Below, piece by piece: positions 6,468-44,404 of a stretch of DNA of 47,577 bases; within the stretch, counting starts at the first letter, position 1; each line of letters starts with the position of its first letter. The translations under genes were made by a program, and so were the position numbers. The notes under the pieces are model-generated. The model saw only the letters and a list, made by a program, of their open reading frames with translations. It ran no database searches and was not told the origin of the DNA. The DNA is from a virus: positions 1 to 47,577 of IMG/VR virus record IMGVR_UViG_3300049457_000013, one strand, 5' to 3'.

Positions 6468-6471
6468 CCCC

Positions 6472-13183: not shown

Positions 13184-14972
13184 CCTTTGGTTCGGCACCT
13201 CCGGGCCGCGAGACGCCCCGATCGTCCTAGTCGGCGAAGCCTTTGGCGCCGAGGAGGCTGCCTGCTCCCGTCCCTTCGTCGGAAGCTCTGGTGTCGAACT
13301 AAGTCGCATCCTAGCCGAAGCAGGAGTGAAACGCGATGAAATTCTTCTCACCAACGTTGTGGCTGCTCGGCCACAAAACAACGAAATGTGGCGCCTCTTT
13401 GAACCTAAGGGACGAGTTGATAAAGCACAACAAAAAGTGGGTGGACTTTATCCAGCACAATTCGTACAAGATGAAGTCCGGCGATTGTATTCTCATATCG
13501 CAGCGCACCCCCGACGGCTTATTATCTGTGCAGGAAATTACCCACTTTGGGCCCTCACTAATCATTCTGGGGCTGAAGTTATCCGCTCAAGCAATAACAG
13601 ACCAGTGCCGCCGGACCTTCAAACGTATGTGCCGACCGGCATCATGTCGTGGCGAGGGAGTATGACATATGGACTTCGAGACCGTTTTCACTCTGGCGAT
13701 AGTGGGCTACATAATGGTAGTCGCAGCGATGACGTACCTGTATTACCGATTATTCATCCGGCAGCAATAATGCGCCAGTGGTCGCTGCGGGCGGTGATCG
13801 TCCACGACCTAAAGGCCCGCGTTCGAATGGCCCTCGCCGGCGACTGGCGACCAGACCCGCCGCCCGTTTTTTGGGCGCCACCGACCTTTCTGCAATGCAC
13901 GGCACAATTAGCGGTGTGGCTAGCTCGTGCCGATGCTGGCGAGCAAATACGAATTGCCGAAGACATTGAAACGGCAAGGGGCCTCATCACCTGCCTCGGC
14001 CTTTCTGACTCCCCCCAATTTGCTATGAGCATACCCTTCGTCCGCAAAACCGACAGCGGCACGTTCGACTCTTGGTGGTCGCAGGATGAGGAAGGTATGT
14101 TAATGGTTCTCCTCCGCCGCCTCAACACCCACCAGAACATTTTGATTGAGGGTCAAAACTTCATCTACGACACGCAGTATATCCAACACTGGCTCGCCGT
14201 TACGCCGCGCCTCGACTTCGACACAATGCTGGCGCAAAACGTCCTCTTCCCCGGCACGCCAAAGAGCCTCGACTATCTATCCTCGCTGTTCTGTAAGTAC
14301 CATTGGTATTGGAAGGAGGATCATAAGGAATGGGATATGTCGGGGACAATCGAGCAGCTCTTACTATACAATTGCATGGACTGTGTTCGTACCTATGAGT
14401 GTGCCACGACACTTAGGGCACTAATCGTGCAACTAAAACAGACCGAACAGTGGAAGCTCAAGATGCAAATCAACGACCTCTGTCTCCGAATGATGAACCG
14501 AGGGGTGTTGATCGACACAAAGGGGCGCGCCGCTCTATCTATGCAGCTCGCCGAAACGATCTCCCAACTCGAACACGACCTTCACACAATTGTGCCGCAA
14601 GATGTTGTGGCGCCAGACGCGAAGCGCCCATGGTTTAGCTCGCCACAGCAAACCGCATACTTGTTCTACGATCGCCTCGGCTTCCGGGTCGAAACGCAAC
14701 GGAAGACGAAGCGCCCCACCGTCGGCAAGGACGCCAGAGTTGCGCTCGCAACTCGCTACCCCGAGTTCACCGGCCTTTTCGAACGCCTCCGCCTCCACGG
14801 CTCTTGCGAAAACACCCACAACGTCATCAATGCCGGCCTCGACCCCGACGATAGGATGCGGTGTTCGTTCAACCCCGGCGGCGCCGAGACGCACCGGCTC
14901 TCGTCGTCGAAGAACGCCTTCGGCCGCGGCACAAATCTGCAAAACCTTACGAAAGGGGAGGAGGACGAATAA
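13170..14972 (+). CDS. DNA polymerase A, N-terminal part: UDG-like, 3'-5' exonuclease and thumb
   Basis: Residues 1-220 are a uracil-DNA-glycosylase-superfamily domain: LVGEAFGAEE (19-29), RPFVGSSG (34-41), LLTNVVAARPQ and IIHPAA (H196). Residues about 255-420 are a 3'-5' exonuclease with Exo I DIE (265-267), Exo II D334 (QNFIYD) and Exo III D404 (YNCMD). The thumb and the start of the polymerase follow, ending at RLSSSKNAFGRGTNLQN and a short acidic tail before TAA. Motifs A, B and C are missing and are encoded at 15252-15995 in the same frame. A fused UDG is known in phage SPO1 polymerase. Together the halves make a full replicative PolA. Confidence 0.88.
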   Translation: MPPTDLWFGTSGPRDAPIVLVGEAFGAEEAACSRPFVGSSGVELSRILAEAGVKRDEILLTNVVAARPQNNEMWRLFEPKGRVDKAQQKVGGLYPAQFVQDEVRRLYSHIAAHPRRLIICAGNYPLWALTNHSGAEVIRSSNNRPVPPDLQTYVPTGIMSWRGSMTYGLRDRFHSGDSGLHNGSRSDDVPVLPIIHPAAIMRQWSLRAVIVHDLKARVRMALAGDWRPDPPPVFWAPPTFLQCTAQLAVWLARADAGEQIRIAEDIETARGLITCLGLSDSPQFAMSIPFVRKTDSGTFDSWWSQDEEGMLMVLLRRLNTHQNILIEGQNFIYDTQYIQHWLAVTPRLDFDTMLAQNVLFPGTPKSLDYLSSLFCKYHWYWKEDHKEWDMSGTIEQLLLYNCMDCVRTYECATTLRALIVQLKQTEQWKLKMQINDLCLRMMNRGVLIDTKGRAALSMQLAETISQLEHDLHTIVPQDVVAPDAKRPWFSSPQQTAYLFYDRLGFRVETQRKTKRPTVGKDARVALATRYPEFTGLFERLRLHGSCENTHNVINAGLDPDDRMRCSFNPGGAETHRLSSSKNAFGRGTNLQNLTKGEEDE

Positions 14973-15298
14973 TGGGATATCCTTGGGTGAAACTTTGTCC
15001 CTGTTGTGGTCAAGATATTGTAGTGTCAAACGAGATAACAAGTCTTCGAATCAGGCCGGGGCCACTACAAGTCTTAATGCGTCTTGTCCGAGCTAAGTCA
15101 TGTACTTTAACCTATGAGCAACTTGGGCATAACAGACCAACACTCCACGTCTATATATCACAGCTACGTGCCGCTTTACATGAAACCGGCTCCCCCTGGA
15201 GTATTAAAACGGACTACAGTATAGGCTATTATGCAGTAAGGACAAAAGAACATGACAGCGATAACCCTCCCGAACGTCAGGAAGCTCTTCATTCCTGA
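14972..15298 (+). CDS. Zinc-knuckle winged-helix protein lodged inside polA
   Basis: The 108-residue product starts on the last base of the polymerase stop (TAATG). It opens with LCPCCGQDI, a Cys knuckle, and continues with an OmpR/PhoB-type winged helix: LTYEQLGHNRPTLHVYISQL, then RAALHETGSPWSIKT and GYYAV. Small proteins of this design occur in other phages as free-standing DNA binders. Here it fills a 285-base insert between polymerase halves, and its 3' end overlaps the second half by 47 bases. The DNA is clearly richer in A+T than the flanks, suggesting recent acquisition. It may be a regulator or a remnant of a mobile cassette. Confidence 0.8.
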   Translation: MGYPWVKLCPCCGQDIVVSNEITSLRIRPGPLQVLMRLVRAKSCTLTYEQLGHNRPTLHVYISQLRAALHETGSPWSIKTDYSIGYYAVRTKEHDSDNPPERQEALHS

Positions 15299-15995
15299 CC
15301 CCGGCTACACGATGTTCGACGCCGACCTCAAGGGTGCCGACGCCCAAGTCGTCGCTTGGGAGGCAGAGGACGAGGACCTAAAGGCCGCCTTCCGCGCCGG
15401 CGTCGACGTGCATTCGAAGAATGCCGAGGACATGCTCGGCGCGACGTTCACACAACTCTCTGGCCATGCCCGCGACGCAAAGCGCCAAGAGACGAAGAAG
15501 GGCGTCCACGCAACGAACTACGGCGGCGCCGCCCGCACCCTCGCCATTACCCTCGGATGGACTGTTCACGACGCCGACCGCTTTCAGCGACGTTGGTTCG
15601 CCCTCCATCCAGGGATTAAGAACAATTTCCATAACCGCATACAAGCCGATCTCCACCGCAACAGGACCATCACAAATGCCTTCGGTTTTCGACGCGTTTA
15701 CTTCGACCGCCCCGACGCCTGCTTTACGGAAGCATTGGCGTGGAAGCCACAGAGTGTCGTGGCCCTCAACAGTTTCATCGGGGCGCTTCAACTGGAAGAA
15801 AAGTTCCCCTCCGTCCAAATACTGCTCCAAGACCACGACTCCCTCGTGTTTCAATTCCCGACGTCGCAGATACCGCCGGCGGCAATGATACTGTCGGCGC
15901 TCACCGCAGTCACGCCATACCCCGATCCTCTCCGCATCCCGTGGGAGCTAAAGTCGTCGACGAAGAGTTGGGGGGATTGTAGGAAGGTTGGATAG
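15252..15995 (+). CDS. DNA polymerase A, C-terminal part with motifs A, B and C
   Basis: The 247-residue piece starts with LPNVRKLFIPDPGY, the natural continuation of the first half. Motif A is FDADLKGADAQ with D25. Motif B is RQETKKGVHATNYGG (residues 78-92), with K82 and Y90 in the places of Klenow K758 and Y766. Motif C is QDHDSLVF (D194-H195-D196). The Phe762 position appears to be H86, which is unusual. The two halves are in the same frame, and the junction loses no residues. The product must assemble with the first half to make an active enzyme. A weak SD (AAAAGAA) precedes the ATG. Confidence 0.88.
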   Translation: MTAITLPNVRKLFIPDPGYTMFDADLKGADAQVVAWEAEDEDLKAAFRAGVDVHSKNAEDMLGATFTQLSGHARDAKRQETKKGVHATNYGGAARTLAITLGWTVHDADRFQRRWFALHPGIKNNFHNRIQADLHRNRTITNAFGFRRVYFDRPDACFTEALAWKPQSVVALNSFIGALQLEEKFPSVQILLQDHDSLVFQFPTSQIPPAAMILSALTAVTPYPDPLRIPWELKSSTKSWGDCRKVG

Positions 15996-30154: not shown

Positions 30155-32284
30155 CTACAGTCGCGCAACAAAGTCCATAGTCGCGGCGGCGTTATTCGCG
30201 TACAGGGCAGTGCCGGCCCCTAAATCTAAGTTCGCAGCAGTTACACCGAGGATTTCTGCCGACTCCGGCGTCGCATTGGTCAGCGTAAGGGACGTTATGG
30301 CCGCTTGAAGCGCATTGCTGTTGTTGCGGAAGGCAAAGTGCCCAACAGATGAAACTATAAGGGCCGGCGTCGTTATCATAGGGTCCGGGAAATCTACAAA
30401 AACCCGCGGCCCTTGCGCGACTCCATTAAACCCCGAAGCGATAAACTTCCCAACCGTTGCGGTATTCGGGACGCGATAGAACTGACGTCGTACCTTAGCA
30501 ATCTCCACCTCTCCCGGCCGCATGAGGTTGCGAACTTCTTCGGGCTTCGGGGCATAACTTAGCGGAATGGCAAAGAAGCCGGTGATGTCAAAGGTTGCAC
30601 CATTCGTTCCGGAGAAGTTAGTCTGCTCCGAAGTCGTAAGGAGATACGCAGCCCCCCAAGTGTTGATCGTGCCTTGGAAGGTTGAGCCGGCCGACAGTGT
30701 AATGGAGACGATAGCCCCAACGGTCTCATTAACTGGCCACGTCCCTACTGCTACATCCGGCGGCACAAAGATTGTCTTGTACTCCCACGTATTTGCAAGA
30801 TTGATTGAGAACGTGGTCATCCAATTGCTAGCCAGGGCGCCGTTGGTAATAGAGAAGCCATAAGTACCGGGGACCGAACTTCGGACAAAGAAGCCGAACG
30901 TTGCGGGGTAGGCGCCGGCGGCACCCCATCCAAGACGTCCCCAATCCAACCCCTCAATTCGAGTGTCGAGAAGGAGACAATCCCCAGCGGCTATCGCCAC
31001 GTCTGGCGTCGTCACGGTTAGCCTATGGGCGTAGGCAAATCCAGGAAGCCCAGATGCGATTATTCGCTGCCCCGTCGTCCGCACCGCTCCCGATGGCAAC
31101 GTCTTCCAATGGTCCGTGACGTAAGTTGCCCCTGCGATACCTGTGACGGCGTTGCTTCCATTAACTTGCGAGCAAATATGATCCCCATTGACCGCCAACG
31201 ACTCACACGCCGCCATCTCAACTCGCGGCGCCCGCCCTCCACCATGCTCTGCTATCCTCGCCGCTGCGGCACCAGCGAGGAAATATCCCTCCGCCGTCAT
31301 ATGGAAGTTGTCCGACCAATACGCAATTGGGAAGGCGCCTGGATACAACAACTGCCGATTGTCGGGATCGTCAGCTACTACCGCCTCCACAGCCCCATTA
31401 AAGGTATCGTTTGTCGTCAGTCCAGTAACTGCGTTGGAGCCAAGGGCGGAGAGCATAATTGGCGTTGAACGGAGAAACCACGTCTCACCGAACAGGCGGT
31501 CGATTAGTGTACGAACTCCATCGAGCCAAAGGGCAGCATTGTTCGCATTCGACTCCCCCTGCCAAAATACAAACCTATCAATCTTCGTTAATCCAAGTGA
31601 AGCCAGCGCCGCCTCCACAATCGCCTTCATATTCGCATACACGTCAGGGGCGGAGGCGCCGGGAAGCCAATGATCTATTGTCCTTCCCCCAAACGAAACA
31701 TTTACAACATAGGTGCGCCGGTTTGGGTTATTGCGAGCAACCTCAGAGGCCATTCGATTAGTAAAGTCGACAGTGGTGGAGGGGAGGGGGATAAATGTCG
31801 TCCCAACATCGCCATCCACCGCACTATTCGCAATGTATGCGTTATTCCACACAAAGGCATTTGACTCCGGGGTCCAGACAAATGGCTGGGCGTCACGAGT
31901 ATTGGATTGCCCTGTAGCGAGGATAACGTATGGAACGCCATGAACGGCAAGGGCGTCAGTGAGGATGAAGAACCAGGCAACGTTGTTGGAGAAGAATAGA
32001 GCGGACTCCCCCGGCTCCATATCTCGTACCGTTACCCCATTCGAATCCACAATATTTAATTGGAAGCCACTCCCCGTATGCACAATAGTGTAGTATTGGC
32101 CACCGGCAGACGTGTAGGCAGGGAGGCGGACAATCCGACTCGCCCCATTTGGGTTGAGGAAGTATGAAGTTGGGCCATCATTCGGGATTATGAAGGCACC
32201 AGTCAAGGTTGCCCTCATTGTGGCCCAAGATCCCGACGACTGACGAAGGCGGCGGGCGTTTATATCTTCGACGTTATTACGCAT
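30155..32284 (-). CDS. Tail fibre/spike with SGNH (sialate O-acetylesterase-like) hydrolase
   Basis: The 709-residue product has an N-terminal beta domain (1-115), then an SGNH hydrolase: GQSN at 125-128 (nucleophile S127), FGG around 198-200, WQGESNA at 241-247, and SDNFH with D325 and H328. This is the order of the SASA/CE6 acetylxylan and sialate esterases. The C-terminal half is beta-rich (jelly-roll-like, residues about 350-600) and may bind carbohydrate. In phages such enzymes deacetylate capsular or O-antigen sugars during adsorption. It is the main host-range candidate of this phage. Confidence 0.88.
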   Translation of the reverse strand: MRNNVEDINARRLRQSSGSWATMRATLTGAFIIPNDGPTSYFLNPNGASRIVRLPAYTSAGGQYYTIVHTGSGFQLNIVDSNGVTVRDMEPGESALFFSNNVAWFFILTDALAVHGVPYVILATGQSNTRDAQPFVWTPESNAFVWNNAYIANSAVDGDVGTTFIPLPSTTVDFTNRMASEVARNNPNRRTYVVNVSFGGRTIDHWLPGASAPDVYANMKAIVEAALASLGLTKIDRFVFWQGESNANNAALWLDGVRTLIDRLFGETWFLRSTPIMLSALGSNAVTGLTTNDTFNGAVEAVVADDPDNRQLLYPGAFPIAYWSDNFHMTAEGYFLAGAAAARIAEHGGGRAPRVEMAACESLAVNGDHICSQVNGSNAVTGIAGATYVTDHWKTLPSGAVRTTGQRIIASGLPGFAYAHRLTVTTPDVAIAAGDCLLLDTRIEGLDWGRLGWGAAGAYPATFGFFVRSSVPGTYGFSITNGALASNWMTTFSINLANTWEYKTIFVPPDVAVGTWPVNETVGAIVSITLSAGSTFQGTINTWGAAYLLTTSEQTNFSGTNGATFDITGFFAIPLSYAPKPEEVRNLMRPGEVEIAKVRRQFYRVPNTATVGKFIASGFNGVAQGPRVFVDFPDPMITTPALIVSSVGHFAFRNNSNALQAAITSLTLTNATPESAEILGVTAANLDLGAGTALYANNAAATMDFVARL

Positions 32285-32319: not shown

Positions 32320-32373
32320 TCACATCATCACCAGAAGTGTGAGAGCGTAGAGCAAGCTGATGAAGTTGTTCAT
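32320..32373 (-). CDS. Possible 17-residue hydrophobic microprotein
   Basis: An ATG overlapping the stop of the LamG-like gene as ATGA opens a 17-codon frame with the product MNNFISLLYALTLLVMM. It continues the run of ATGA-coupled, membrane-targeted genes just upstream, which is the only reason to list it. The small size makes chance likely. If real, it would be a short membrane peptide. Confidence 0.25.
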   Translation of the reverse strand: MNNFISLLYALTLLVMM

Positions 32374-33242
32374 GCTGTCGCCGGGAGCCACATCGGGCTG
32401 TTGTCGTTGTCGTGGTGAAGGTCGCGCTTGAGCAGCCAGTTGGTCGGGAAGGGCGCAGTCGGCACAGCGCAGCCACTATCGTTAGCGCACCGCGCAACGC
32501 CCTTAGTGATGCGTAAGGCTTGTAGGTTTCCGATTAGTGAGTTGGCCACAGCGCCGCTGTCGCTACCAATGTTCAGCGTCCTGCCAGAATTGAAAATGGT
32601 CACAAGGGAGGTCGAGCTAGCTACCATGGTAGATGTCGAATCGCTGGCTAGGGCCACGTACTCGCGATACTTTGTGCCGTCGAAATCAACCATCACGTAA
32701 TACCAAACACCGTTGGATGGACCCCAGGCCCCTCCACTGGAAAACAAATTTCCCTGATCTGTCCCGGTCGTGCTGTAACCGAAGTACAATTTCCCATCTG
32801 AAAACTTTTGCCACACCCATCCGAGGTCAAGCCCGGAGCTTCCCCACTGTGTAAGAAAATGTTGCTGGCCAGTGACATCAGAAAACCTGATAAACGTTTC
32901 GATTGTAAACAGGCCAGCGGCCAAATTCCAATCTGCGCTATCGAGGAACGAGCACCCGGAACTTGCGCCGATGGCCAACGAGGAAGGAGAAAACTGAAAA
33001 GTGCTCGTATCAATTTGCGCCGACCCGGCACAGGTCGCATTCCCATGCACCGCAGGGCTGAAGTCTGGGACGACGGTCGAGCCGTTCGTACCAGAGGCTG
33101 GAATGAGCAGCACCACGTTAGAAAAAAACGGGTCTGGCGCTTGTGGGGTAGAAGCGCCGCTATAGGGCAACGTCCCAAGCTGCGCGTGTGGCGCTGAGAT
33201 CAGCGCGAGTAGGAGCGCAAGAGCTATGCGGAAGCGGGTCAT
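32370..33242 (-). CDS. Secreted LamG/concanavalin-like lectin protein with C-terminal tag
   Basis: The 290-residue product opens with a Sec signal peptide (TRFRIALALLLALISAPHA, cleavage near residue 20). The body is a LamG/concanavalin-type jelly roll: FSPSSLAIGASSGCSFLDS, AAGLFTIETFIRFSD, WYYVMVDFDGTKYREYVA and LIGNLQALRITKGVARC, the last being a very typical end strand. It ends in LLKRDLHHDNDNSPMWLPAT, a tag shared with the protein at 34082-35323. It probably binds carbohydrate outside the inner membrane. Coupled by ATGA overlap to the 48-residue gene upstream. Confidence 0.8.
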   Translation of the reverse strand: MTRFRIALALLLALISAPHAQLGTLPYSGASTPQAPDPFFSNVVLLIPASGTNGSTVVPDFSPAVHGNATCAGSAQIDTSTFQFSPSSLAIGASSGCSFLDSADWNLAAGLFTIETFIRFSDVTGQQHFLTQWGSSGLDLGWVWQKFSDGKLYFGYSTTGTDQGNLFSSGGAWGPSNGVWYYVMVDFDGTKYREYVALASDSTSTMVASSTSLVTIFNSGRTLNIGSDSGAVANSLIGNLQALRITKGVARCANDSGCAVPTAPFPTNWLLKRDLHHDNDNSPMWLPATA

Positions 33243-33385
33243 TGTGCAGTCAACCTCTCACCAGTGTTGGTCAATAAATAGCCACTTTCATCGTCCAGTA
33301 GAAAATTACCTCCTGTACTTCCATGCGTCCAAGCAGATGCAATAGCTATAATAAATATCATCGTTACAATTCTCACCAACAACAT
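33239..33385 (-). CDS. 48-residue secreted or anchored protein
   Basis: Starts at 33385 behind AAGAGG. The N-terminus is hydrophobic (LLVRIVTMIFIIAIASAW) and the remainder is polar (GGNFLLDDESGYLLTNTGER). It could be a Sec-exported peptide or a single-pass membrane protein. It ends at an ATGA overlap with the LamG-like gene. The DNA here (about 33260-33400) is noticeably richer in A+T than the rest of the late region, which hints at recent acquisition. No homologue comes to mind. Confidence 0.6.
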   Translation of the reverse strand: MLLVRIVTMIFIIAIASAWTHGSTGGNFLLDDESGYLLTNTGERLTAQ

Positions 33386-33397
33386 AATAACCTCTTA

Positions 33398-33601
33398 CTA
33401 TTGCGCCACCAAATAATTCGTAGTTCCTCCACTACCACCCCCCACAACATAGATTGTGTACTGCGTGCAACTGAACGGCTTCCCACCAGCTATAACTCCT
33501 GCCAATCGCTTGCACTCTTCTTGCGTTGGCAAAGCCGGCACGGTGAACTTGCTTGTGTTTGAAAGTGAGACCAAAAGAAGCCATGCTGACACGATTAACA
33601 T
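33398..33601 (-). CDS. 67-residue small secreted two-Cys protein
   Basis: The start at 33601 shares a base with the upstream stop (TAATG); a longer start at 33616 is possible. A signal-like LIVSAWLLLVSLSNTS is followed by a mature part with QEECKRLAGVIAGG and KPFSCTQYTIYV, where the two Cys could form a disulphide in the periplasm. The layout resembles that of the 58-residue product at 45083-45259. A Gly-rich tail (GGGSGGTTNYLVAQ) ends it. Function unknown; a periplasmic role is likely. Confidence 0.6.
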   Translation of the reverse strand: MLIVSAWLLLVSLSNTSKFTVPALPTQEECKRLAGVIAGGKPFSCTQYTIYVVGGGSGGTTNYLVAQ

Positions 33602-33828
33602 TACACAATCCTCCAAACTCGAATGACAGAACGAGAGATTTGTCTCATCGTGAACTTAAAACCAGTTCGTTTTGCGGCCCTACGCACCATGACATTTATT
33701 GAGTTGTAATCTCTGTCGTAAATGGTCAGACATTCCGTAACTTTCATTTCATGCCACTGATAGACCTGCCTCGTCTCATAAGGGTGCGGAATTGGGATAT
33801 TTTGTTCTTTAACAACTGCGTACATCAT
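33601..33828 (-). CDS. 75-residue basic protein in the secreted cassette
   Basis: I place the start at 33828, where ATG overlaps the upstream stop as ATGA. Unlike its neighbours it has no signal peptide. It is basic in its C-terminal half (VRRAAKRTGFKFTMRQISRS, then VIRVWRIV), which could bind nucleic acid or membranes. As a cytoplasmic member between exported proteins it may help express or fold them, but nothing in the sequence proves that. Confidence 0.55.
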   Translation of the reverse strand: MMYAVVKEQNIPIPHPYETRQVYQWHEMKVTECLTIYDRDYNSINVMVRRAAKRTGFKFTMRQISRSVIRVWRIV

Positions 33829-34085
33829 CCCACCACCCACACCGTTCCATTGCAGTGCACGAGCACCGTAACAGCACCGCCACCGACAACAAGAATATTC
33901 AACGCCGGACCTAGTGCATCGGTCACAGTGTAGATCAGTCCGGTTAACGCCGCCGTGCAGTTCGGGAGTGCGGCTACCGTACTACTCGTCTGACCGAATG
34001 ACGGGATGCCGTAGGCGAAAATGCCATCGGCGCGAGCTACAACAGCAAGCAGCATGATCAGAACAAGGATGGCAACCCTCGTCAT
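33825..34085 (-). CDS. 86-residue secreted protein
   Basis: Start chosen at 34085 (ATGA overlap with the upstream gene). The signal peptide TRVAILVLIMLLAVVARADG is clear, with an ARA-D cleavage site. The mature part is beta-rich and has two Cys (LPNCTAALTGLIYTV, VHCNGTVWVVG). The CxAxLxG...YTVTDALGP pattern looks like a small fibre-head domain. Exported, therefore, and probably disulphide-linked. Confidence 0.65.
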   Translation of the reverse strand: MTRVAILVLIMLLAVVARADGIFAYGIPSFGQTSSTVAALPNCTAALTGLIYTVTDALGPALNILVVGGGAVTVLVHCNGTVWVVG

Positions 34086-35323
34086 GCCGCCACATCCAAC
34101 CATAGCGGAGTGTTGTCGTTCGCGTGACCGAGATCACGCCTGAGCACGTACCCACCAATGATGAGGCCGCCGCTACCACCACTTGGACCATTACAGGTTA
34201 TCGACGTAAGCCCACCTACATTTATGCAGTTGCTTGCAACGATACTTCCGCCGCCGGTAAAAGTGAGGCTTCCAAGCACAACCCAACTTGGCGTAGATGC
34301 CGCTGCGGACGAAATCGTTGTGACGGACGTACCACCGACAACAGAAATTACACTCGAAGATGCAGTCCCAGCCCAAGTTATTGCATTTGTTACCGTAAAC
34401 GTCGTTGTGGAAGTCGGAAGTTTTACCACTATCGGAGCAGTCAAGTTCCACGTTGCGATCGTTGGTGTAGTTGCTGTTAAAGAAAGTTCGTATGAATTAC
34501 TGCCGGTGTTGGCAAACGTAACTGTATTATAAGACCTGGATGTTCCAAGATTAACAACTCGTGATGCGGCTGCTGCTGATGAAATCAGCAGCGTACCAGG
34601 CATTGCCGTGACAGTTATGTTTGTACCACTGAAGTCCCACGGGGTTCCGCTAGTTCCTGAAATAGTCCATGTGTTTGTGCCGCCATTAAACACACGGGTT
34701 CCTGCGCCCGAAGCCGAAAAAACTCCAGCTGTCACCGCAACATTGTTGGTTCCGGCATCAAGTGTACCCTGCGTATGCGTCAGTGTGCCACCAGCAAGAA
34801 CGCTTAAGGCATCCGCGAGCACAACTGACACCCCAGCCGTCACATTGATTGTGACCGCCCCGAATGTCTTACCGCCAGAGGTCAATGTGATAGGGCCAGA
34901 GGCCCCTGTAAACGATACTAAGCGACTACTCGACGCGGCTGTATAAGAAATAGACCCTGCAAATTTGAAAGTGGTGCCCGTGACGGTCAATGTAACAGCG
35001 TTGTGCGTCAACGTCAGTGCGGACGATCCAGTGGCGTCGAAATTGCGGATGGAAATAGCGCTGTTGATCGTGCTGCCATTCGTGCCGCTATTGGCAGTAA
35101 AAAATATGTCGTCGCCAGTTGAAGGCGTACAGGTACACGATACACCACCATCTGTCAGCGACCAATTTGTTGTCGCACTCCAATTTGCGGCACCTGCACC
35201 GGGTATCCAAAAGCAACTATTGCCACCAAGGCCATCGCCGCAAACGGCGGCAATTGCCGGTGCTGGCAACCATGCAGCGATCGTCAACCACAAAACTAGA
35301 AGACTGAATAGAAAGCGCCTCAT
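34082..35323 (-). CDS. Secreted beta-helix-like protein with C-terminal tag
   Basis: The 413-residue product has a strong signal peptide (FLFSLLVLWLTIAAWLP, cleavage near AIA-A at 24-26). The mature chain is a long run of Ser/Thr/Gly/Val strands (LTLTHNAVTLTVTGTTF, ISYTAASSSRLVSFTG, GTLLISSAAAASRVVNLG) typical of beta-solenoid or adhesin shafts. It ends in GGYVLRRDLGHANDNTPLWL and four more residues, the same tag as in the LamG-like protein. It would be exported and is probably surface-bound or periplasmic. An alternative is a virion fibre whose signal-like N-terminus is a head-binding anchor. Confidence 0.75.
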   Translation of the reverse strand: MRRFLFSLLVLWLTIAAWLPAPAIAAVCGDGLGGNSCFWIPGAGAANWSATTNWSLTDGGVSCTCTPSTGDDIFFTANSGTNGSTINSAISIRNFDATGSSALTLTHNAVTLTVTGTTFKFAGSISYTAASSSRLVSFTGASGPITLTSGGKTFGAVTINVTAGVSVVLADALSVLAGGTLTHTQGTLDAGTNNVAVTAGVFSASGAGTRVFNGGTNTWTISGTSGTPWDFSGTNITVTAMPGTLLISSAAAASRVVNLGTSRSYNTVTFANTGSNSYELSLTATTPTIATWNLTAPIVVKLPTSTTTFTVTNAITWAGTASSSVISVVGGTSVTTISSAAASTPSWVVLGSLTFTGGGSIVASNCINVGGLTSITCNGPSGGSGGLIIGGYVLRRDLGHANDNTPLWLDVAA

Positions 35324-35324
35324 G

Positions 35325-37244
35325 TCACTTGTATCCGATGTTCACGCTCATGGCGCTTGCGGTGGCGTTGGTCGTGTCGTTCGTAGCATAGCCTGAGGTC
35401 ACACAGATGCTAATCCCCGTCGCAAAAGCTATACCGCTGTCCCAGCTATCGCTGATGCCACCAACACTCGTACTCGCGGGGATCGCAACTTGATAGACTA
35501 GGTTCGTCGCGCTATTGCAGCCGTTGAAGCCGGTCGTGGCGTTGTACAGGCGAAGATAATTCACCGTCGCAGAATTGTTGGTCGCGCTGACTTTGTAGAC
35601 CTGCCCCGCACCCGCCTTGATAACGACATGGTTGTCGCTCGCGGTGGGCTGTACAAAATACACACTGAGGCCGCCGCTCGTAACGGGCGTCGGTTGAGAT
35701 TGAACCGCAAATGTCCCGGCGTTAGTTGCGGCAATAGTCTGTGCCGCCGCGACATTAACCGTCCCGATGACCTTTGTCGTTTCAGCGGACAACGTTGAGT
35801 TGACTGAAAACGCCGTGTTGTCCGATGCGATGGTGACCCGTGGGGTTCCAGTTCCTGCAACACCATTCCCAGACGCCACCGCAACCGTTCCGACAAACAT
35901 CGAGGCGTTCGCGCTACCCGCCACGACTGCGCCCGGCGTCGTACCGAAGTTGGCCGGGGCACCGAGGGCCGTGCCGGCCCACGAAGCCACGTCACTACGA
36001 AGGCCGCCGGCGGTTGTGAGGCTCGCGTATGCCGTCTGCGCCGTCGTGTAGCTTGGTGCGGCCGTCGTGACCGCGCCCATAATCATTGATCCAGTCTGTC
36101 CGGAGGTCGTTGAACCTTGCGCAAGGCCGGTCGCAGTGACAACGTTGACGCGGAGGTTGCCAGTTGTGTCACACGATAACGGATCAGTCTGAGCAGTAGT
36201 GTAAGTCGGCGCAGCCGTCGTCACGGCACACTGTGAAAGACTGCCGGTCTGGCCTGCCGTGGTTGAGCCCTGCGCAACGCCCCCAGCGGTCACTGTACCG
36301 GAAACAACCCAAGGCGAAGTGCCCTGGTTGACCGTACCGATGACTTTTGTCGTCTCGGCGGCGAGTGTGGCCTGCGTGGCAAACGTGCCTGTCCCAACAA
36401 CAGTGGCATTCAAATTCGCTGCTGTGGCCTGCGCCGCTTGCACGGCAAATGTCCCGGCATTCGTGACAGCAAGCGTCGTGTTGGTAAAGGCTACAGCGTT
36501 CGTTGTGCCTGGAGTTGTTTGATCAATACCGACCTTCCCAATGATGGCCGTGCCGGCGGGAATGGCGCTACCGACCGCCGTCAGAATGCTCTGCCCCGTT
36601 GCGTCGAGCATGAGGGCGGATGTGTTAAGATTTGTCCCGGCATTGGCGATGAATGCAGTGTTCCCGATGGATCCGCCAGCCTGAAACGGGGAGCCGAGTG
36701 TCGTGTTGATCGTGGACTGTAATACTGAGGTCGCGGCTCCAGTCGGCAAGACGCTTGTCTTAACGTTGACGAAGGCACCGTTGGTTGAATCACCATAGAG
36801 GCGATCCCAAGCGGCGCCATCCCAAACATAGCTCCACGCCGCAGCCTGCCCATTTGTAGCTGACGTCGCTACGTTGTCGGCGTTGTTATTAAAGGTTCCG
36901 CCGCCACCAAGACCGGCAAGGATGGACGTCAAACGTTGATTTGCCCGCTTAAGGAGCGCAATCTCAGTGCACGTTCCGTTGTCGGTAGCGCACGCGGCGT
37001 CGGCTGTGGTGCCTTGTGCGACGTCAGCGCCATCCGCAATTGTGGCAGCGCCACCCCCACCTCCTCCACCTCCACTATCTACAATAACGTGGGGGGTGTG
37101 AACGCCGGCAGTGTCGGTCGTCTTTAGGACGACCCTCCCTCCCCCGGCGGTATTGATTGCGTAGTTGTCAGCGGCCCATGCTACACCGAGCATAGTGGCC
37201 ACAACCGTCGCCGTTATCCAGAAGCGGGAAGTGGAGAGTTTCAT
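35325..37244 (-). CDS. Secreted, repeat-containing fibre-like protein
   Basis: The 639-residue product has a Sec signal (STSRFWITATVVATMLGVAWA). It contains a Gly run near residue 57-66 and internal repeats: ETTKVIGTVN occurs twice, NAGTFAVQ twice, and QGSTTxGQTGS twice. A beta-rich C-terminal domain (GQVYKVSATNNSATVNYLRLY, split around NN) ends it. ETTKVIGTVN-type repeats occur in phage fibre and baseplate-like proteins I recall. It starts 67 bases after the upstream gene, with AGGAG a few bases upstream, and is followed by one base and the beta-helix gene. Confidence 0.7.
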   Translation of the reverse strand: MKLSTSRFWITATVVATMLGVAWAADNYAINTAGGGRVVLKTTDTAGVHTPHVIVDSGGGGGGGGAATIADGADVAQGTTADAACATDNGTCTEIALLKRANQRLTSILAGLGGGGTFNNNADNVATSATNGQAAAWSYVWDGAAWDRLYGDSTNGAFVNVKTSVLPTGAATSVLQSTINTTLGSPFQAGGSIGNTAFIANAGTNLNTSALMLDATGQSILTAVGSAIPAGTAIIGKVGIDQTTPGTTNAVAFTNTTLAVTNAGTFAVQAAQATAANLNATVVGTGTFATQATLAAETTKVIGTVNQGTSPWVVSGTVTAGGVAQGSTTAGQTGSLSQCAVTTAAPTYTTAQTDPLSCDTTGNLRVNVVTATGLAQGSTTSGQTGSMIMGAVTTAAPSYTTAQTAYASLTTAGGLRSDVASWAGTALGAPANFGTTPGAVVAGSANASMFVGTVAVASGNGVAGTGTPRVTIASDNTAFSVNSTLSAETTKVIGTVNVAAAQTIAATNAGTFAVQSQPTPVTSGGLSVYFVQPTASDNHVVIKAGAGQVYKVSATNNSATVNYLRLYNATTGFNGCNSATNLVYQVAIPASTSVGGISDSWDSGIAFATGISICVTSGYATNDTTNATASAMSVNIGYK

Positions 37245-37274
37245 AGAATTGGACTCCTAGAAGAGGGGGTGGTG

Positions 37275-37305
37275 GGTACGGTTAACGGTCTATTAACCGT
37301 ACCCA
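37275..37305. repeat. Perfect GGTTAA hairpin in the late module
   Basis: GGGTACGGTTAA (37275-37286), loop CGGTCTA, TTAACCGTACCC (37294-37305): a 12-bp perfect stem between two leftward genes. It belongs to the same GTTAAC-centred family as the early elements, so the family crosses both transcription units. No U run follows on either strand. Confidence 0.8.
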
Positions 37306-37310
37306 ATACC

Positions 37311-37955
37311 CTAGTAAAGACTCGCAACCGGCCCAAGCGCCGTCGTGAACGTTATCGGCGGTGTGATTGTCGTGAAGCCGGTAGCGTACACCTGCCCTGT
37401 CTGCTTCGCCGCTCCAAAGTTGCCAATCGTGTGTGCATTGATCTTCGACGTACCACCGCCAGTATCGCCGATGGCGAGGACGTAGTACGTAGCCGGTCCC
37501 TTCGCTGCATACGCCGCAGTAAAGGGGATACGTTGGAAGGCGTCCGTTCCTGCTTGCGCCGTCGAGGCCGACGTAGCCACGACCGTGCCAAGGGTGTTCG
37601 CAAGGCCAACCTTAACATTCCCCGCAACCGCCGAGCCGTTCAGAAGGGCAACACCAGTGATCGTTGTGTTTGCCGGTACAAACACCTCAGCGATAATCAC
37701 CTCCGTTGCCACGACGGTGTAGTCGGAGAAGTCAGTCGAAACCGTCGGCGCATTTCCGCCGGTGTGCCAACAACGAGGAACGACACCGAAACCCGTGCCT
37801 CCCGCCGCCCCTTGCCCCCCCGTTGCGGTCACGGAACCCGTAACCGTTAGGTTGCGAAGCCCACTCAGGTCCTTGTTGCCATCCGGAATGAGGGCTTTGA
37901 GGGCCCTCACCACACCGGGAGTAATGCCGCCAGTAAAGTATGCTCCGAGTCTCAT
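37311..37955 (-). CDS. Probable virion surface protein
   Basis: A 214-residue protein with Gly-rich linkers near residues 45-60 and a long beta-rich C-terminal half (VVATEVIIAEVFVPANTTITG, split at V; NVKVGLANTLGTVVATSAST; ATYYVLAIGDTGGGTSKIN). The pattern looks like a decoration or head-fibre domain. The gene lies between two capsid-side genes and the secreted cassette and is separated from the latter by the hairpin at 37275-37305. The N-terminus has no signal peptide. Confidence 0.6.
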   Translation of the reverse strand: MRLGAYFTGGITPGVVRALKALIPDGNKDLSGLRNLTVTGSVTATGGQGAAGGTGFGVVPRCWHTGGNAPTVSTDFSDYTVVATEVIIAEVFVPANTTITGVALLNGSAVAGNVKVGLANTLGTVVATSASTAQAGTDAFQRIPFTAAYAAKGPATYYVLAIGDTGGGTSKINAHTIGNFGAAKQTGQVYATGFTTITPPITFTTALGPVASLY

Positions 37956-37969
37956 GACTTAGCCCTCCC

Positions 37970-38338
37970 TTACGATGAGAGGGCGGTCGCGAGGGCTCGC
38001 CATCCAAGCGCTTGTGTTGCGTGGCCGGTGCAGAATAGGATCGTTCCCTCCAACGTTGCAAGGGCAATCGCCGTTGTGAACGCGGCATCCCCATCGGTCT
38101 TGAAGGTGATCGTGCTCGCGCTGACATTGAACACGACAAACGTCAAGCCGGCGTTCGCGGCATTCGACGTCGGGAGCAGGATATCGACGGCCCCCGCTGG
38201 GTTCATAAGCAACAGCGGTGGACTGTCGACATCGAGCACCTCGTTATCCGCCGGCGCCCAAAGCATCGACGAGAGCTTCAACCCCTGCTTAATAATGGGA
38301 TAATAGCACTCTGCATTCTGTTCAATTCCACGACCCAT
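37970..38338 (-). CDS. Small beta-rich head decoration-like protein
   Basis: The 122-residue product consists mainly of strands (PPLLLMNPAGAVDILLPT, LTFVVFNVSASTITFKTDG, GTILFCTGHATQALGWRAL). This sequence texture resembles head-fibre or decoration proteins that trimerise on phage capsids. It follows the major capsid gene by 27 bases, the expected place for a decoration gene. No diagnostic motif is available. Confidence 0.55.
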   Translation of the reverse strand: MGRGIEQNAECYYPIIKQGLKLSSMLWAPADNEVLDVDSPPLLLMNPAGAVDILLPTSNAANAGLTFVVFNVSASTITFKTDGDAAFTTAIALATLEGTILFCTGHATQALGWRALATALSS

Positions 38339-38365: not shown

Positions 38366-39598
38366 CTAGGTTGAGCTGATGTTGCCGAGGTAGGCGCACG
38401 TCAGCCCACCATAGTCGACCATGAGGGAACAATCGGTTTGGATGAAGCCGCGACGAACGTCTTCCTCTTCCGTCTGCACATCGTCTTTCACCTTCGCGTC
38501 GGGGCGCCCCTCTTGCGTCACATACTTGATTGCGTCGAAGTCCAGCACAAAGGCGGACTTCTTATACAACGTATGTCGCGACATAAGGGGGTGCGATTTC
38601 ATTAACAAGCGGCCGTTCGGGAGGAGAAACTCCCGGAAGTCCATCCCATACACCTTGACGGTGTCGTTGACATGGAACTCGACTTCGTTGGCGAATATCT
38701 TCGACAACTCGATCAGTGCCGCGTTGCCGGCAAAGACCATCCGCGTATCGCCAGCACCAGTATCGAAGTCATACACGGGGGAGACGGAGTCGAGGAGAGA
38801 CGCTGGAGTCACGGGCGTTGAGAAGATCGTCACATTCGCCGAAGGAAGGAAGTTCCTAACTCCCTTCATAAAGCGCTTGGGCTTCCCATTATCCCCCGTC
38901 GTCTCGGCGGCTCGGCCAAAGAGCATCGACCACTCGATGTCCGAGCTGTGTTTGAACATCTTCCGCTTCTTGTCTTCGCTATAGTTGTTATTGGTGCGAG
39001 TCTTCGTCTTGTCGGCCGTCCCAGCCAACTCGAACGTATCTTTGAAGATTTGGATGTAGTTGCTGAACTTGATCGGGTTGCGCGACACAGCACGGGGCGC
39101 GCCTGTACCTTCCGCATACGACGATCCTATGACGGTTAGCCAGATGTCGTTCGCGATGCTTGCCGCCGTCGTACCGCCAGCCCCACGCCGAACGGTGAAC
39201 TGTGTGTCGCTGACCACATCATCAACCTCAAGAAGCTCGTGGTCGAACGTTGCATTGTCGGTCGCCGGCTCGACAAGGAGGATGTCGCCGGGCTTTAAGT
39301 TCGTCGCAGTACCAAGGTTGGCGGCGAGTGTTGTCGCCGTCGGGTCGGCCGTGTCGACAACGACGAGCGTGTCTGTCGATCCAAGCGCCCCGTTGACTTG
39401 AAGGCGGATAAGGACATTCCCCTCACACCACCAAGCGAACTCTGGATCGTTGACGGTCTTCTTCCCCGCCTTCGACGTGAGGGCGAAGATCGGCGCCGTT
39501 CCATTTGGGTTGAAGCGGAGGATACCTTCACGGAAGTTCTTGGGGCGCTCGTCGGTGCCCCAATCTCCCGTACCTCGTAAGCCTGCAATTCCACTCAT
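38366..39598 (-). CDS. Major capsid protein, SU10/HK97-fold type
   Basis: The 410-residue protein fits the SU10-like (DUF5309) capsid family: an N-terminal RPKNFREGILRFNPNG and APIFALTSKAG, a central TFELAGTADKTK, KRKMFKHSSDIEWSMLFG, and a C-terminal CSLMVDYGGLTCAYLGN. EFAWWCEG is an apparent family-like box early on. The order small terminase, large terminase, portal, scaffold-like, capsid supports it. It should self-assemble around the scaffold-like protein encoded just upstream (4-base overlap). Confidence 0.85.
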   Translation of the reverse strand: MSGIAGLRGTGDWGTDERPKNFREGILRFNPNGTAPIFALTSKAGKKTVNDPEFAWWCEGNVLIRLQVNGALGSTDTLVVVDTADPTATTLAANLGTATNLKPGDILLVEPATDNATFDHELLEVDDVVSDTQFTVRRGAGGTTAASIANDIWLTVIGSSYAEGTGAPRAVSRNPIKFSNYIQIFKDTFELAGTADKTKTRTNNNYSEDKKRKMFKHSSDIEWSMLFGRAAETTGDNGKPKRFMKGVRNFLPSANVTIFSTPVTPASLLDSVSPVYDFDTGAGDTRMVFAGNAALIELSKIFANEVEFHVNDTVKVYGMDFREFLLPNGRLLMKSHPLMSRHTLYKKSAFVLDFDAIKYVTQEGRPDAKVKDDVQTEEEDVRRGFIQTDCSLMVDYGGLTCAYLGNISST

Positions 39599-40617: not shown

Positions 40618-40933
40618 TATCTTCCTCGTGCGTGCTGGAGGCCGCACCGATTGCGGCTATAGTAATTGATGGTATGTCGCGAGCCAAGATTAAGCCATTC
40701 ATTACACCTTTTACAAACTCCTGACGATACACCCCCACCTCCGTCTCAATCGGGGCGAGGAGTTGTTGAGCGCGATCCTCAATGAGGCGGTTCAGAAGGA
40801 CGATGAAGTTCTGCCAACCTTCGGTCTTTACCAACGCCTCGAAGGTGTCGGCGCGCGCCTTATCCTCACGGTCCAGCTTGAGGCCGCTTTGCAGTAGTTC
40901 GGCAATCGTCGGCGTAACCTCAGGCTGCTCCAT
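40604..40933 (-). CDS. Hypothetical 109-residue head-module protein
   Basis: A small acidic protein with a helical core (DKARADTFEALVKTEGWQNF, NRLIEDRAQQLLAPIETEVG) and a short Ala-rich end. It overlaps the portal gene and the scaffold gene by 14 bases each. Helical small proteins at this position are often portal-capsid assembly factors, but no family is recognised. Confidence 0.6.
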   Translation of the reverse strand: MEQPEVTPTIAELLQSGLKLDREDKARADTFEALVKTEGWQNFIVLLNRLIEDRAQQLLAPIETEVGVYRQEFVKGVMNGLILARDIPSITIAAIGAASSTHEEDNEQA

Positions 40934-42899
40934 ATCCGTCCCCTTCTGGGGTCATCGCGTCGAGGCCGGCGGCGGTCGACGCCGAGTTGCCAGGCTGCAC
41001 CGGCGAACCTCCGTCAGGTGGCAACCTCGACGGCATCGGTATAACATTCCCTGCCTGTTGTTGCTGCTGGAGTTGCTGGTCTGGCACCACTTGGACGCGA
41101 AAGTTGTTGATATTCTTGAGCCCGGCAAGCGTCGCCACCCAACCGAAGATACGGACAAGGTCGTAACTTGCGGCGATCTGCGGCGGCATCATTCGGAGAG
41201 AGCCAAGTATCTCCTTCCAAAGGTTCGCCTGCGCCATTCGATCGACGGGGAGCGTGCCATCGACTGGGATGAAGTCGAAAAAGCCCGCAATGGTTTCTGG
41301 AGATACGTCGATGAACTCCTTACCGGCGTCTTGAACGAGTGAACCAACGCGGCGTATCTTCGCCGAAGCGTCGTAGTATTGTTGCGACGATTGAACCATC
41401 TTTTGCGAATGTGGGGAGAAGCCTGTCGCGGACATATACTCAGTAGTTGTTTTGAGGCGGTTGACGCCGAAACCAGTCGACGTTCGTACTTCAGTTGCCG
41501 TTCGCCTTCCGCCAGTCGCAAGGGCGCCCATAATTTGATCATTGATGCCGAGGGTCCGCTCCCCAATCCCAAGCATAGTTTGGAAGTCAGCGATGTTCCC
41601 CCGCGTAACGTCTTGGACTGGCACCTGTTTGAACATTTTGTCGAGATCAGTTCCGTATGCTTCTGGTCGCAATCGCCACAGGAAGCCAGGGCCGGCTTCT
41701 TTTGCGTCCTTTATCACAATCTTTGACGGGTCGATAAGGAACTGATTGTTCAACGAGGCGCGGACGTTGAAAAAGTGGGTGTTGATGAGCCAATCGACGG
41801 TTTGCTGGATCGGTTGTAATATCTCGGGAATTCCACGACAGTAAAGGCCATAACCTTCCACCTCAGACTCAAGAATGTCGAATGGGAACTTACAGTGCAT
41901 ATACCCGAGGGGCGAAGCGCCCACAACCAAGGTGAGGTCCTCGGTGATTGTGAAGCACCATTTCGTTGGGAATTTTGTGGAGCCTACCCCCCATTCATCA
42001 GGGACTAGCTCAACATAGACTTCCCAAAATGTTGCCCCGGCGGGGTGCTTCGTCGATTCCTCCTTATCGTCGAGGATAAGGTTGTTGAATTGAGGGCGAG
42101 CGAGTTGACTGGAGCCTAACGACGCTCCTCGATCAGTAAGATGTTCCTTGAGCTGCTTAATGTTGTCATTGAAGTAGCCCTGATCTTGCCGCCGCAATAT
42201 CTGACTCCACCCCATCCTCTTTCTAGCACAACAGAACTCACCCTCTTGGAGCCGCGAGAGGGGCACGCGCGGGTCGTGCATGAAGTCATATGGCGAGACG
42301 TTATAGACGCGATTGCCCTTGTAGCCGGGGATTTCCTGCGTAACTTGCATCATGACCATTAAACCAGAACCGGGCTTCGACGGGTCCTCCATCTCGACAA
42401 TCTGGCCATAGTGGAGCTTCTCTTCGTCCCAATAAGAACCGAGGATGCCGCAACCATACTTCCCGGCATCGTACAGCCAGATGTAGTACGGGCCGAGGAA
42501 ACTACCGACCTCAACTTGGTAGCCAATAAGGGCCTCAAGCGCCTGAACTTGCATCTCCCCTTCGCCGTGCCGGCCCGCATACTGATGGACGGGGGAGCGG
42601 GCAAAGAACACACTCGTCCAATATGTGTGGGCGGACATCAGCATTGCATACGAGTACGGTATCTGAATTGTTGTATATTTCGGCTCTCCCTTCCGCCGCC
42701 GGTCGGCGCGCGCCGCGTCGACGTCCGTCTCCGGCACGAAGGCAAGGGTCAGTTCCTCCGCCTTCCTCCACATATCCCATCGCGACGTGGCGCCACTATT
42801 CGGCCCCCTTTCAGCCAATCTAACGCGCGTCGAAAGCCGCGCCACAAGTTTCTCGTGCAGCGGACTTCCCTTCGGAACCGACAGGGTTCGCTTCGCCAT
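40920..42899 (-). CDS. Portal (head-tail connector) protein
   Basis: The 659-residue product starts at 42899, where ATG shares a base with the terminase stop. The early DMWRKAEELTLAFVPE, the central PFDILESEVEGYGLYCRGIP and LQPIQQTVDWLINTHFFNVR, then NNQFLIDPSKIVIKD and the helical end are typical of long podovirus portals, which have a helical stem and crown. A Gln run (QQLQQQQQ) and Pro-rich tail sit at the C-terminus. Length and gene order agree. It forms a dodecamer through which DNA is packaged and ejected. Confidence 0.85.
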   Translation of the reverse strand: MAKRTLSVPKGSPLHEKLVARLSTRVRLAERGPNSGATSRWDMWRKAEELTLAFVPETDVDAARADRRRKGEPKYTTIQIPYSYAMLMSAHTYWTSVFFARSPVHQYAGRHGEGEMQVQALEALIGYQVEVGSFLGPYYIWLYDAGKYGCGILGSYWDEEKLHYGQIVEMEDPSKPGSGLMVMMQVTQEIPGYKGNRVYNVSPYDFMHDPRVPLSRLQEGEFCCARKRMGWSQILRRQDQGYFNDNIKQLKEHLTDRGASLGSSQLARPQFNNLILDDKEESTKHPAGATFWEVYVELVPDEWGVGSTKFPTKWCFTITEDLTLVVGASPLGYMHCKFPFDILESEVEGYGLYCRGIPEILQPIQQTVDWLINTHFFNVRASLNNQFLIDPSKIVIKDAKEAGPGFLWRLRPEAYGTDLDKMFKQVPVQDVTRGNIADFQTMLGIGERTLGINDQIMGALATGGRRTATEVRTSTGFGVNRLKTTTEYMSATGFSPHSQKMVQSSQQYYDASAKIRRVGSLVQDAGKEFIDVSPETIAGFFDFIPVDGTLPVDRMAQANLWKEILGSLRMMPPQIAASYDLVRIFGWVATLAGLKNINNFRVQVVPDQQLQQQQQAGNVIPMPSRLPPDGGSPVQPGNSASTAAGLDAMTPEGDGYGAA

Positions 42900-44404
42900 T
42901 AAGGGCAACCCCTTACATATTCGAGTTCTAACACATTCCCGTCGTCGTAGCCGGCGGTGCCCGGTTCGAGGAACGGATTTGCGATATCCTGGAGCGCCAA
43001 GGCGCTCGCGTCAAGGTCGTCGTCGAACTCAACATTCGGGTACGCTTCGAACTGTTCGGCGAAGATCGTGTGCTCGGGGCCGATCCAGAGTTTGCCCGCC
43101 GACGCCAACCCAGACAAAACGCCCGTGATGCGGGCAAACTTCTGCATTCCGTCGGAAATCGGCACGACGCTATAGTAAATGCCACGCCGCTTCATTTCCT
43201 GCTCTAGGAGCCACTTTAGGGTCTTCTGGTAGGCGACGGCATCGACGATTATGCGGGCCACCCGCCACTTTCGGGCCAGTGTAAATGCTGTTGTGACGGA
43301 CCACGAAGGTTCGTGCCCACGATTGCGTTCGTAGTCGAGTAGATGATACTCGCCGTCGTGCCGGCCCCAAACGTATTGGGCTTCCCAATTCTTCCCGACA
43401 AGACCTTTAGCCAGCTCGCGCTCGCTCGGCGGCGGCACGGGGTCGATCGCCAACACCGCGAAGCAGCCGCGTGGCGGCGCGCTGTCGCGAATATTCAGCC
43501 ATTGCGGCCGGAACTGCGACGTTTCGGGCGAAATAAGCCGGCATTCCATTTCCCTCGTGAAGATAGACAGCTTGTTGCGACGAAGGGCGGCCTCTTTGTC
43601 CGCTCTAAGTTTCGCTGTCGGGAACCGATCCTCCCACGAAGATTGCTGTTGGCCGACAGGAAGGTCGAGCGTCCCCTTCGTCCAACAGGGGAACACCCGC
43701 GAGGTCCATTGAGTGTCCGCGAGAGCCTGTTGCGAAACGTCGGCTGAATGCTGCGGCGTAATTGCCATCGCGAGCTTCGCGTTCGGCTCCTCCGACTCCG
43801 GGGCGAGCGAATTCTTCACAGCACCGAGTATTAAATCGGCAACCTTTTCCCTCTGCTCCTTCGTGGCCGCAGTCTCATCAGTCTGAGGGTCGTCGACAAT
43901 AATGAGATCAGGACGATAGTCGTCAAAATTAATACCACGAAGAGAACCAGTGATACCAGCAGCAAGAACCCAAACGGTATGGCCAAAAGTTCCATGTTCA
44001 ATCTCAATTTGTGTTTCTTCCCACTTCCTACCGGCACGGAGGTTGAAGGTGTCGGCCCACTGCTTGTTGCGGTCGACTTGTGTCCGAAGCCATTGCACAC
44101 TACGGATGGCATCGCGTTCTGAAGCTCCCACATATAGTATGGTACGTGATATCCCATAGGCGATCCTCTTGCTCGCGAATGTTCGGAGGCGGGTTGTCTT
44201 ACTCGCGCCGCGGAAGCACAGGAGGTTAACGAGGCGCGCATTTGGATTCTCCAGCGGTTCCCACAAGTCGCGGGCGAAGGGAGGCGACACTTGTCGGTAC
44301 GTTTTCGGGAAGAATGTATGCGCATACAGCTCACTGTCGATCGCGCAGAGTTTAAGTAGTTCCTGTTGTGGGACGTCGACGGTCCGCGGGGCGCCTTCCG
44401 TCAT
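42899..44404 (-). CDS. Terminase large subunit
   Basis: The 501-residue protein has a Walker A variant CFRGASKTT at 63-71, Walker B DLIIVDDPQTDE (D171, D172) and a C-terminal nuclease-type region with AVLAIDP and a later RIIVDAVAYQK; the final acidic FDDDLDASALALQDI fits the last nuclease Asp cluster. The GASKTT form of the P-loop is typical of phage terminases. It packages phage DNA using ATP and cuts it. Overlaps the holin-like gene by four bases (ATGA). Confidence 0.88.
   Translation of the reverse strand: MTEGAPRTVDVPQQELLKLCAIDSELYAHTFFPKTYRQVSPPFARDLWEPLENPNARLVNLLCFRGASKTTRLRTFASKRIAYGISRTILYVGASERDAIRSVQWLRTQVDRNKQWADTFNLRAGRKWEETQIEIEHGTFGHTVWVLAAGITGSLRGINFDDYRPDLIIVDDPQTDETAATKEQREKVADLILGAVKNSLAPESEEPNAKLAMAITPQHSADVSQQALADTQWTSRVFPCWTKGTLDLPVGQQQSSWEDRFPTAKLRADKEAALRRNKLSIFTREMECRLISPETSQFRPQWLNIRDSAPPRGCFAVLAIDPVPPPSERELAKGLVGKNWEAQYVWGRHDGEYHLLDYERNRGHEPSWSVTTAFTLARKWRVARIIVDAVAYQKTLKWLLEQEMKRRGIYYSVVPISDGMQKFARITGVLSGLASAGKLWIGPEHTIFAEQFEAYPNVEFDDDLDASALALQDIANPFLEPGTAGYDDGNVLELEYVRGCP

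Follow-up and report, generated by a model that had tools for sequence, protein, structure and literature searches.

The cytoplasm is the assumed folding site of phage fibres. In the locus described here, a tailed phage has a run of genes for fibre-type proteins headed by signal peptides (SPs) between its capsid and tail genes. The window, that is, the whole stretch of DNA that was analysed, spans the 47,577 bases of an IMG/VR virus record. A first-pass annotation had assigned clear or probable SPs to six products of this locus. We combined SP scoring, structure models, cysteine counts, and comparisons with related viral loci, all of them from uncultured viruses.

Gene order and cassette layout

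The minus-strand right half of the window is a tailed-phage morphogenesis block, in which the tail and ejection genes come after the capsid gene (Table 1). The capsid protein shares 40% identity with the capsids of Microcystis phage Mel-JY34 and Vibrio phage VS-ABTNL-3. A cassette of seven minus-strand genes (32370-37244), six of which encode a Sec-type SP, one of them weak, stands between the tail genes and the major capsid gene. The open reading frames were recovered at the coordinates originally given. The genes had been described as nearly all joined by ATGA or TAATG overlaps, and this holds for most junctions: ATGA overlaps join p34082 to p33825 and p33239 to the LamG gene, ATGATG joins p33825 to p33601, and TAATG joins p33601 to p33398. 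It does not hold for p35325 and p34082, which are separated by 1 nt, or for p33398 and p33239, which are separated by 12 nt. The small genes are A+T-rich, as first noticed, with GC contents of 0.395, 0.417, and 0.49 versus 0.569.

The hairpin just upstream of the cassette is very stable, with a predicted RNA fold of -35.6 kcal/mol (z -5.1), and is a possible processing or attenuation site. At the other end, the micro-ORF MNNFISLLYALTLLVMM agrees with the low limit (32320) of the range first annotated and is possibly a signal-peptide remnant.

Table 1. Features of the cassette and its surroundings (., no strand)
Feature	Position	Strand	Description
Terminase	42899-44404	-	Morphogenesis block
Portal-like head-tail adaptor	40920-42908	-	Morphogenesis block
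Major capsid protein	38366-39598	-	phrog_1328; head-side marker of cassette
p37311/p37970	p37970, 37970-38338	-	Capsid-side neighbours of cassette
Hairpin	37267-37311	.	19-nt arms, 89% complementary, no T run
p35325, 639 aa	35325-37244	-	SP (predicted cleavage between AWA and ADNY), N-terminal domain, IGKVGIDQTTPGTTNAV-type repeats, C-terminal beta-sandwich with Cys pair
p34082, 413 aa	34082-35323	-	SP, beta-helix related in fold to tailspikes, 6 Cys, C-terminal tag
Tag of p34082	34085-34153	-	GYVLRRDLGHANDNTPLWLDVAA
p33825, 86 aa	33825-34085	-	SP, phage fibre C-terminal domain (LPxC...VTDA...GGG...HCNGxxW), Cys pair
p33601, about 75 aa	33601-33828	-	No SP, A+T-rich
p33398, 67 aa	33398-33601	-	Probable (weak) SP, 2 Cys in mature part
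p33239, 48 aa	33239-33385	-	SP followed by AWTHG..., no Cys
LamG-like lectin, 290 aa	32370-33242	-	SP, LGTLPYSGAS linker, LamG-like domain, 4 Cys, C-terminal tag
Tag of LamG protein	32373-32441	-	NWLLKRDLHHDNDNSPMWLPATA
Micro-ORF, 17 codons	32320-32373	-	Overlaps LamG stop codon (ATGA); read from sequence, putative coding
SGNH/SASA esterase fibre	30155-32284	-	No SP; tail-side neighbour; N-terminal region recurs in relatives

Outside the morphogenesis block, the DNA polymerase gene (13170-15995, plus strand) is split; its first part ends after GTNLQNL and its second starts at LPNVRKLFIPDPGYTMFDADL. The small ORF between them (MGYPWVKLCPCCGQDIV..., winged-helix-like by eye) starts through a TAATG overlap and runs into the beginning of the second part. 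Rfam gave no match in the window. Also on the plus strand, the protein encoded by 5733-6467 has an extended low-complexity region of Ala, Asp, and Ser towards its C-terminal end, and a proline-rich ORF (6217-6669) overlaps its gene in a different frame.

Signal peptides and individual products

SPs were scored with a home-made heuristic that combines von Heijne-type weights with the hydrophobic core and the n-region charge. The E. coli secreted proteins OmpA, PhoA, MalE, Bla, OmpF, and LamB, which served as positive controls, scored 12-21, versus 4.2 for LacY and -7.6 for LacI. The six products scored 9.5 (p35325), 12.0 (p34082), 11.4 (p33825), 11.3 (p33239), 10.3 (LamG), and 7.1 (p33398), in line with the original SP calls. 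An n-region charge, a hydrophobic core, and an AxA-type cleavage site are present in five of them, whereas p33398 is weak because its n-region is without charge. On the same scorer, p33601 has no SP and none of the window's virion genes scores above 4; the next-best scores belong to membrane-type ORFs at 44401 (6.1) and 44877 (5.3). Read from their sequences, the six SPs show neither a lipobox with Cys at +1 nor another outer-membrane anchor.

The repeat-rich character first seen in p35325 is evident, and the protein is a member of a large family of repeat-rich proteins, found in viral contigs, that includes SP-bearing (SP+) as well as SP-free (SP-) members. Its C-terminal domain was modelled as a beta-sandwich with a core pLDDT of about 90; the domain occurs in many viral proteins, its fold matches are confined to these, and a Foldseek search of the PDB gave nothing at E 0.001 or better. 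The mature N-termini of SP+ members align weakly with the start of SP- members, and an N-terminal domain appears to be common to both.

For p34082, earlier called a beta-helix protein, the model is a beta-rich solenoid of moderate confidence (mean pLDDT 58); its best PDB matches are the polysaccharide lyase RbmB (Z 15.5) and phage tailspikes (Z 13-14), which support that description. Peptide patterns retrieved no close relative in viral contigs, and blastp found one, an SP+ homologue with 39% identity in locus L148. The LamG assignment is plausible, although Laminin_G_3 reached 26.8 bits (E 6.6e-6), just below the Pfam cut-off of 27.6; the protein also matches phrog_38322. Its LGTLPYSGAS linker is shared with a tagged protein of L141, a locus whose SP+ and tagged cassette also holds a homologue of p33825.

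The product p33239 is possibly a remnant of a longer protein in which WTHG follows the SP, an arrangement that recurs in L055, L078, L099, L126, and L156. With L127 included, W[TI]HG often stands at the mature N-terminus of otherwise unrelated proteins and is a second shared element, this one N-terminal.

Cysteine parity and export

Disulfides form in the periplasm, and exported proteins are therefore expected to have paired cysteines. The mature parts of the six products contain 4 (LamG), 0 (p33239), 2 (p33398), 2 (p33825), 6 (p34082), and 6 (p35325) cysteines. Among proteins of at least 150 aa in related loci, for which genes were called mechanically, even and odd counts stand at 63:7 with an SP (53:7 for SP+ proteins plus 10:0 for those with a later hydrophobic stretch) versus 304:360 for the rest. 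Similarly, a second set, retrieved on another criterion, gave 33:2 for SP+ proteins versus 80:82.

The same relationship is seen within families. Cysteine density in the p35325 family is 1.23 per 100 aa for SP+ members (27 even, 2 odd, 2 zero) versus 0.345 for SP- members (8 even, 15 odd, 14 zero), and in the alignment of the C-terminal domain the Cys pair is found in 10/10 SP+ copies and 0/3 SP- copies. The p33825-type fibre domain was sampled blind to the SP. Proteins with its Cys pair have an SP in 12 of 14 cases at a relaxed cut-off (9 of 14 at the strictest), versus none of the 26 without the pair (p = 1.6e-8 to 7e-6; these p-values and the one for clustering below ignore relatedness among proteins and are indicative only). 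The association in this domain is near complete, with one clear exception in L204. Furthermore, four cysteines are conserved between p34082 and its L148 homologue, while the other two, the third pair, are replaced together.

Collectively, the direction and consistency of the association between SP and paired cysteines are strong across independent samples. Export is thus supported beyond SP prediction by cysteine parity, by Cys pairs that track the SP, and by the clustering of SP+ genes, so that export and disulfide formation of the cassette products appear well supported; even, paired cysteines serve as a proxy that supports an oxidised periplasmic fold. It is conceivable that the SPs are a meaningless inheritance from captured bacterial secreted genes, or uncleaved anchors, and that the proteins act as cytoplasmic virion proteins, as the recent gain of a partly A+T-rich cassette might suggest. 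However, SP-linked Cys pairing is kept across many unrelated proteins and so are the cleavage-site features, which relics would lose by decay, and we regard this explanation as highly improbable. The cysteine-pair test is also a cheap way to separate working SPs from chance ones in viral genomes.

A viral C-terminal tag

The LamG protein and p34082 end in related 23-residue tails (RDL-x3/4-NDN-x-P...). A pattern scan located this tag, with the consensus [YFW]LL[KN]RDLDPASNDN[ST]Pxx[LM]xxAA, in 40 uncultured viral contigs on otherwise diverse proteins, where it stops seven or eight residues short of the C-terminus. Patterns containing DP or a three-residue spacer both gave matches, the latter being the form of both window tags and of L167-L169; the strict motif RDLxHxNDNxPxWL gave nothing in viral contigs. 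Its DNA exists in 29 distinct versions with synonymous change at nearly every codon, and selection therefore acts on the peptide. Nearly every intact tagged protein is SP+ (16 distinct proteins); among tagged proteins without an SP, 13 are truncated at the end of a contig or locus and four are short or have a frameshifted-looking start.

A pattern search found no tag in isolated phages, and the exact pattern gave a single match in 257 Gb of bacterial and archaeal sequence (84,980 genomes). Since bacteria almost lack the tag, its partner is probably phage-encoded. The sole match, L165, lies in the Terriglobia metagenome-assembled genome JAIQFO010000051.1; it is possibly a phage stretch, in which case some tagged phages might have an acidobacterial host. 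Moreover, the L148 homologue of p34082 has no tag while the next L148 gene carries one, and the tag is, from this comparison, mobile between genes.

Recurrence in other phages

The LamG, p33239, p33398, p33601, p33825, and p34082 genes have no homologue in 43 loci that share the capsid gene. Four lineages nevertheless carry unrelated SP+ fibre-type genes in this region: four in tandem directly after the capsid gene in L035, one in L010, and two in L001 and L016. These observations support the modular gain that had been proposed from base composition.

Around SP+ members of the p35325 family, 42 of the 97 neighbours within two genes are themselves SP+, versus 5 of 117 around SP- members; per locus, an SP+ neighbour is present in 23/29 and 4/35 cases, respectively (Fisher p = 3e-8, likewise indicative). 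Because SP+ members sit among SP+ neighbours, the unit is the cassette, and sets predicted to be exported in a comparable manner are present in many other uncultured phages. Isolated phages gave no cassette match in searches where the low-complexity filter of BLAST limits repeat-rich queries; two longer family queries gave one weak partial match each.

The pooled SP+ proteins match tail-fibre and virion PHROGs, an endosialidase chaperone, and BNR/sortilin propellers, and the non-SP genes beside them encode, among others, terminase, portal, major head, and tail proteins. A motif search of single SP+ proteins for the S74 chaperone was negative, whereas two members were identified with Pfam. These domains allow for secreted glycan-active enzymes and lectins that would loosen the extracellular polysaccharide around infected cells and aid progeny dispersal. 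The tailspike- and lyase-like beta-helix of p34082, the propellers, the LamG protein, and SGNH-like SP+ proteins in L140 and L157 (read by eye) would suit such a role. However, the commonest SP+ family, the p35325 type, is without an enzyme signature, and the viral-only tag and the SP-free twins are left unexplained, which makes this account quite unlikely.

Two further sequence families were observed. Exported cassettes of different phages (L049, L059, L099, L111) share an SP+ family whose members are about 190 aa long, have conserved cysteines, and end in WYRVQ or similar; a relationship between this family and p37970 was not supported (probability 6%). The N-terminus of the esterase fibre resembles p37970 (hhalign 74%, suggestive only), and both match the same gene in L013 and L034; they possibly represent a common virion-anchor domain of non-exported fibres.

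Proposed route and its standing

We propose that the cassette encodes late-expressed fibre, spike, and lectin proteins that are routed through Sec, disulfide-bonded, freed at lysis, and then joined to particles, a tentative reading to which we assign a probability of about 0.45. Synthesised together with the proteins of capsid and tail, the products would pass through the inner membrane via Sec and lose their SPs. Disulfides would form in the periplasm, where trimerisation could also take place, and cell lysis would release the products. Less certainly, the freed products would dock on progeny particles, either directly or by way of another exported phage protein there, through the C-terminal tag or the N-terminal domain apparently common to SP+ and SP- members. 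The outcome would be particles bearing adhesins stabilised by disulfides, which cytoplasmic synthesis could not provide.

Of the tasks first suggested for the exported products, namely coating of the infected cell, blocking of superinfection, and attachment after lysis, the last, at or after lysis, is favoured because of the late-block position, the fibre ancestry, the SP-free twins, and the viral-only tag; together, ancestry, late-operon position, and tag lean away from an early exclusion function. On the other side, fibres that join outside the cell would be unusual, and the tag is missing from four of the window's six SP+ products. The phage also has another candidate receptor-binding protein, the esterase fibre without an SP, which would equally suit soluble exported adhesins that never sit on particles. 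Such adhesins, released at or before lysis, would cover receptors or glycans of the dying cell and of its debris; progeny would thereby escape loss by re-adsorption, and superinfection would be blocked. The lectin- and fibre-like nature of the SP+ products would agree with this. Nevertheless, the SP+ genes lie in the late structural block, the near absence of the tag from bacteria suggests a phage partner, the set is complex, with up to six genes, and the six SPs show no lipobox or other outer-membrane anchor; we consider soluble adhesins a possible but less likely alternative. Particle attachment could also be extended to a general phage display system, in which fibre- and enzyme-type proteins are Sec-exported for disulfides and docked after lysis by the viral-only peptide, with freely swappable modules; this extension is speculative and, in our judgement, unlikely to hold as a whole.

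If fibre cassettes are indeed exported and disulfide-bonded, phages would have a second route to build and deploy receptor-binding and glycan-cutting proteins. This would have consequences for host range, for the reading of SP-bearing 'auxiliary' CAZymes in environmental phages, and for the search for robust, disulfide-stabilised binders.

Comparison with known systems

No description of exported fibre cassettes was found in the literature searched, subscription papers lying outside the search. SAR endolysins, spanins, and the T4 antiholin RI use Sec signal or signal-anchor sequences (PMC3765740, PMC8385771). In contrast to these secreted lysis proteins, the cassette consists of several consecutive fibre-type genes, and no lysis domain was found in it. 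The pIII and pVIII proteins of filamentous phages are virion proteins made through Sec, pIII being disulfide-bonded, with assembly in the membrane; the phage of the window differs in having tailed-phage terminase, portal, and capsid genes. Bacterial C-terminal sorting signals (LPXTG, PEP-CTERM, and the T9SS CTD) are short or defined C-terminal signals on SP-bearing proteins. Unlike them, the tag is without a transmembrane segment or a basic tail, and its exact pattern is nearly absent from bacterial genomes.

The superinfection-exclusion lipoprotein Llp of T5 is exported. Similar to proteins of this type, the cassette products are phage-encoded, predicted to be exported, and possibly receptor-directed, and soluble adhesins would be comparable to Llp in purpose; in contrast, the cassette products are without a lipobox, large, fibre-like, partly tagged, and encoded in the late structural block. 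Finally, the tailspikes and fibres of tailed phages acquire their fold in the cytoplasm, and an N-terminal anchor attaches them to the virion. The predicted beta-helix of p34082 has the same architecture as the spikes of DpK2, Acinetobacter phage P1, and Kp7 (PDB 7lzj, 6e1r, 7xyc), and the SP+ pool resembles this class in its fibre-type domains and PHROG tail-fibre matches, whereas the cassette proteins are headed by a signal peptide and have paired cysteines. Sec export is a route that is rarely considered for fibre-type proteins.
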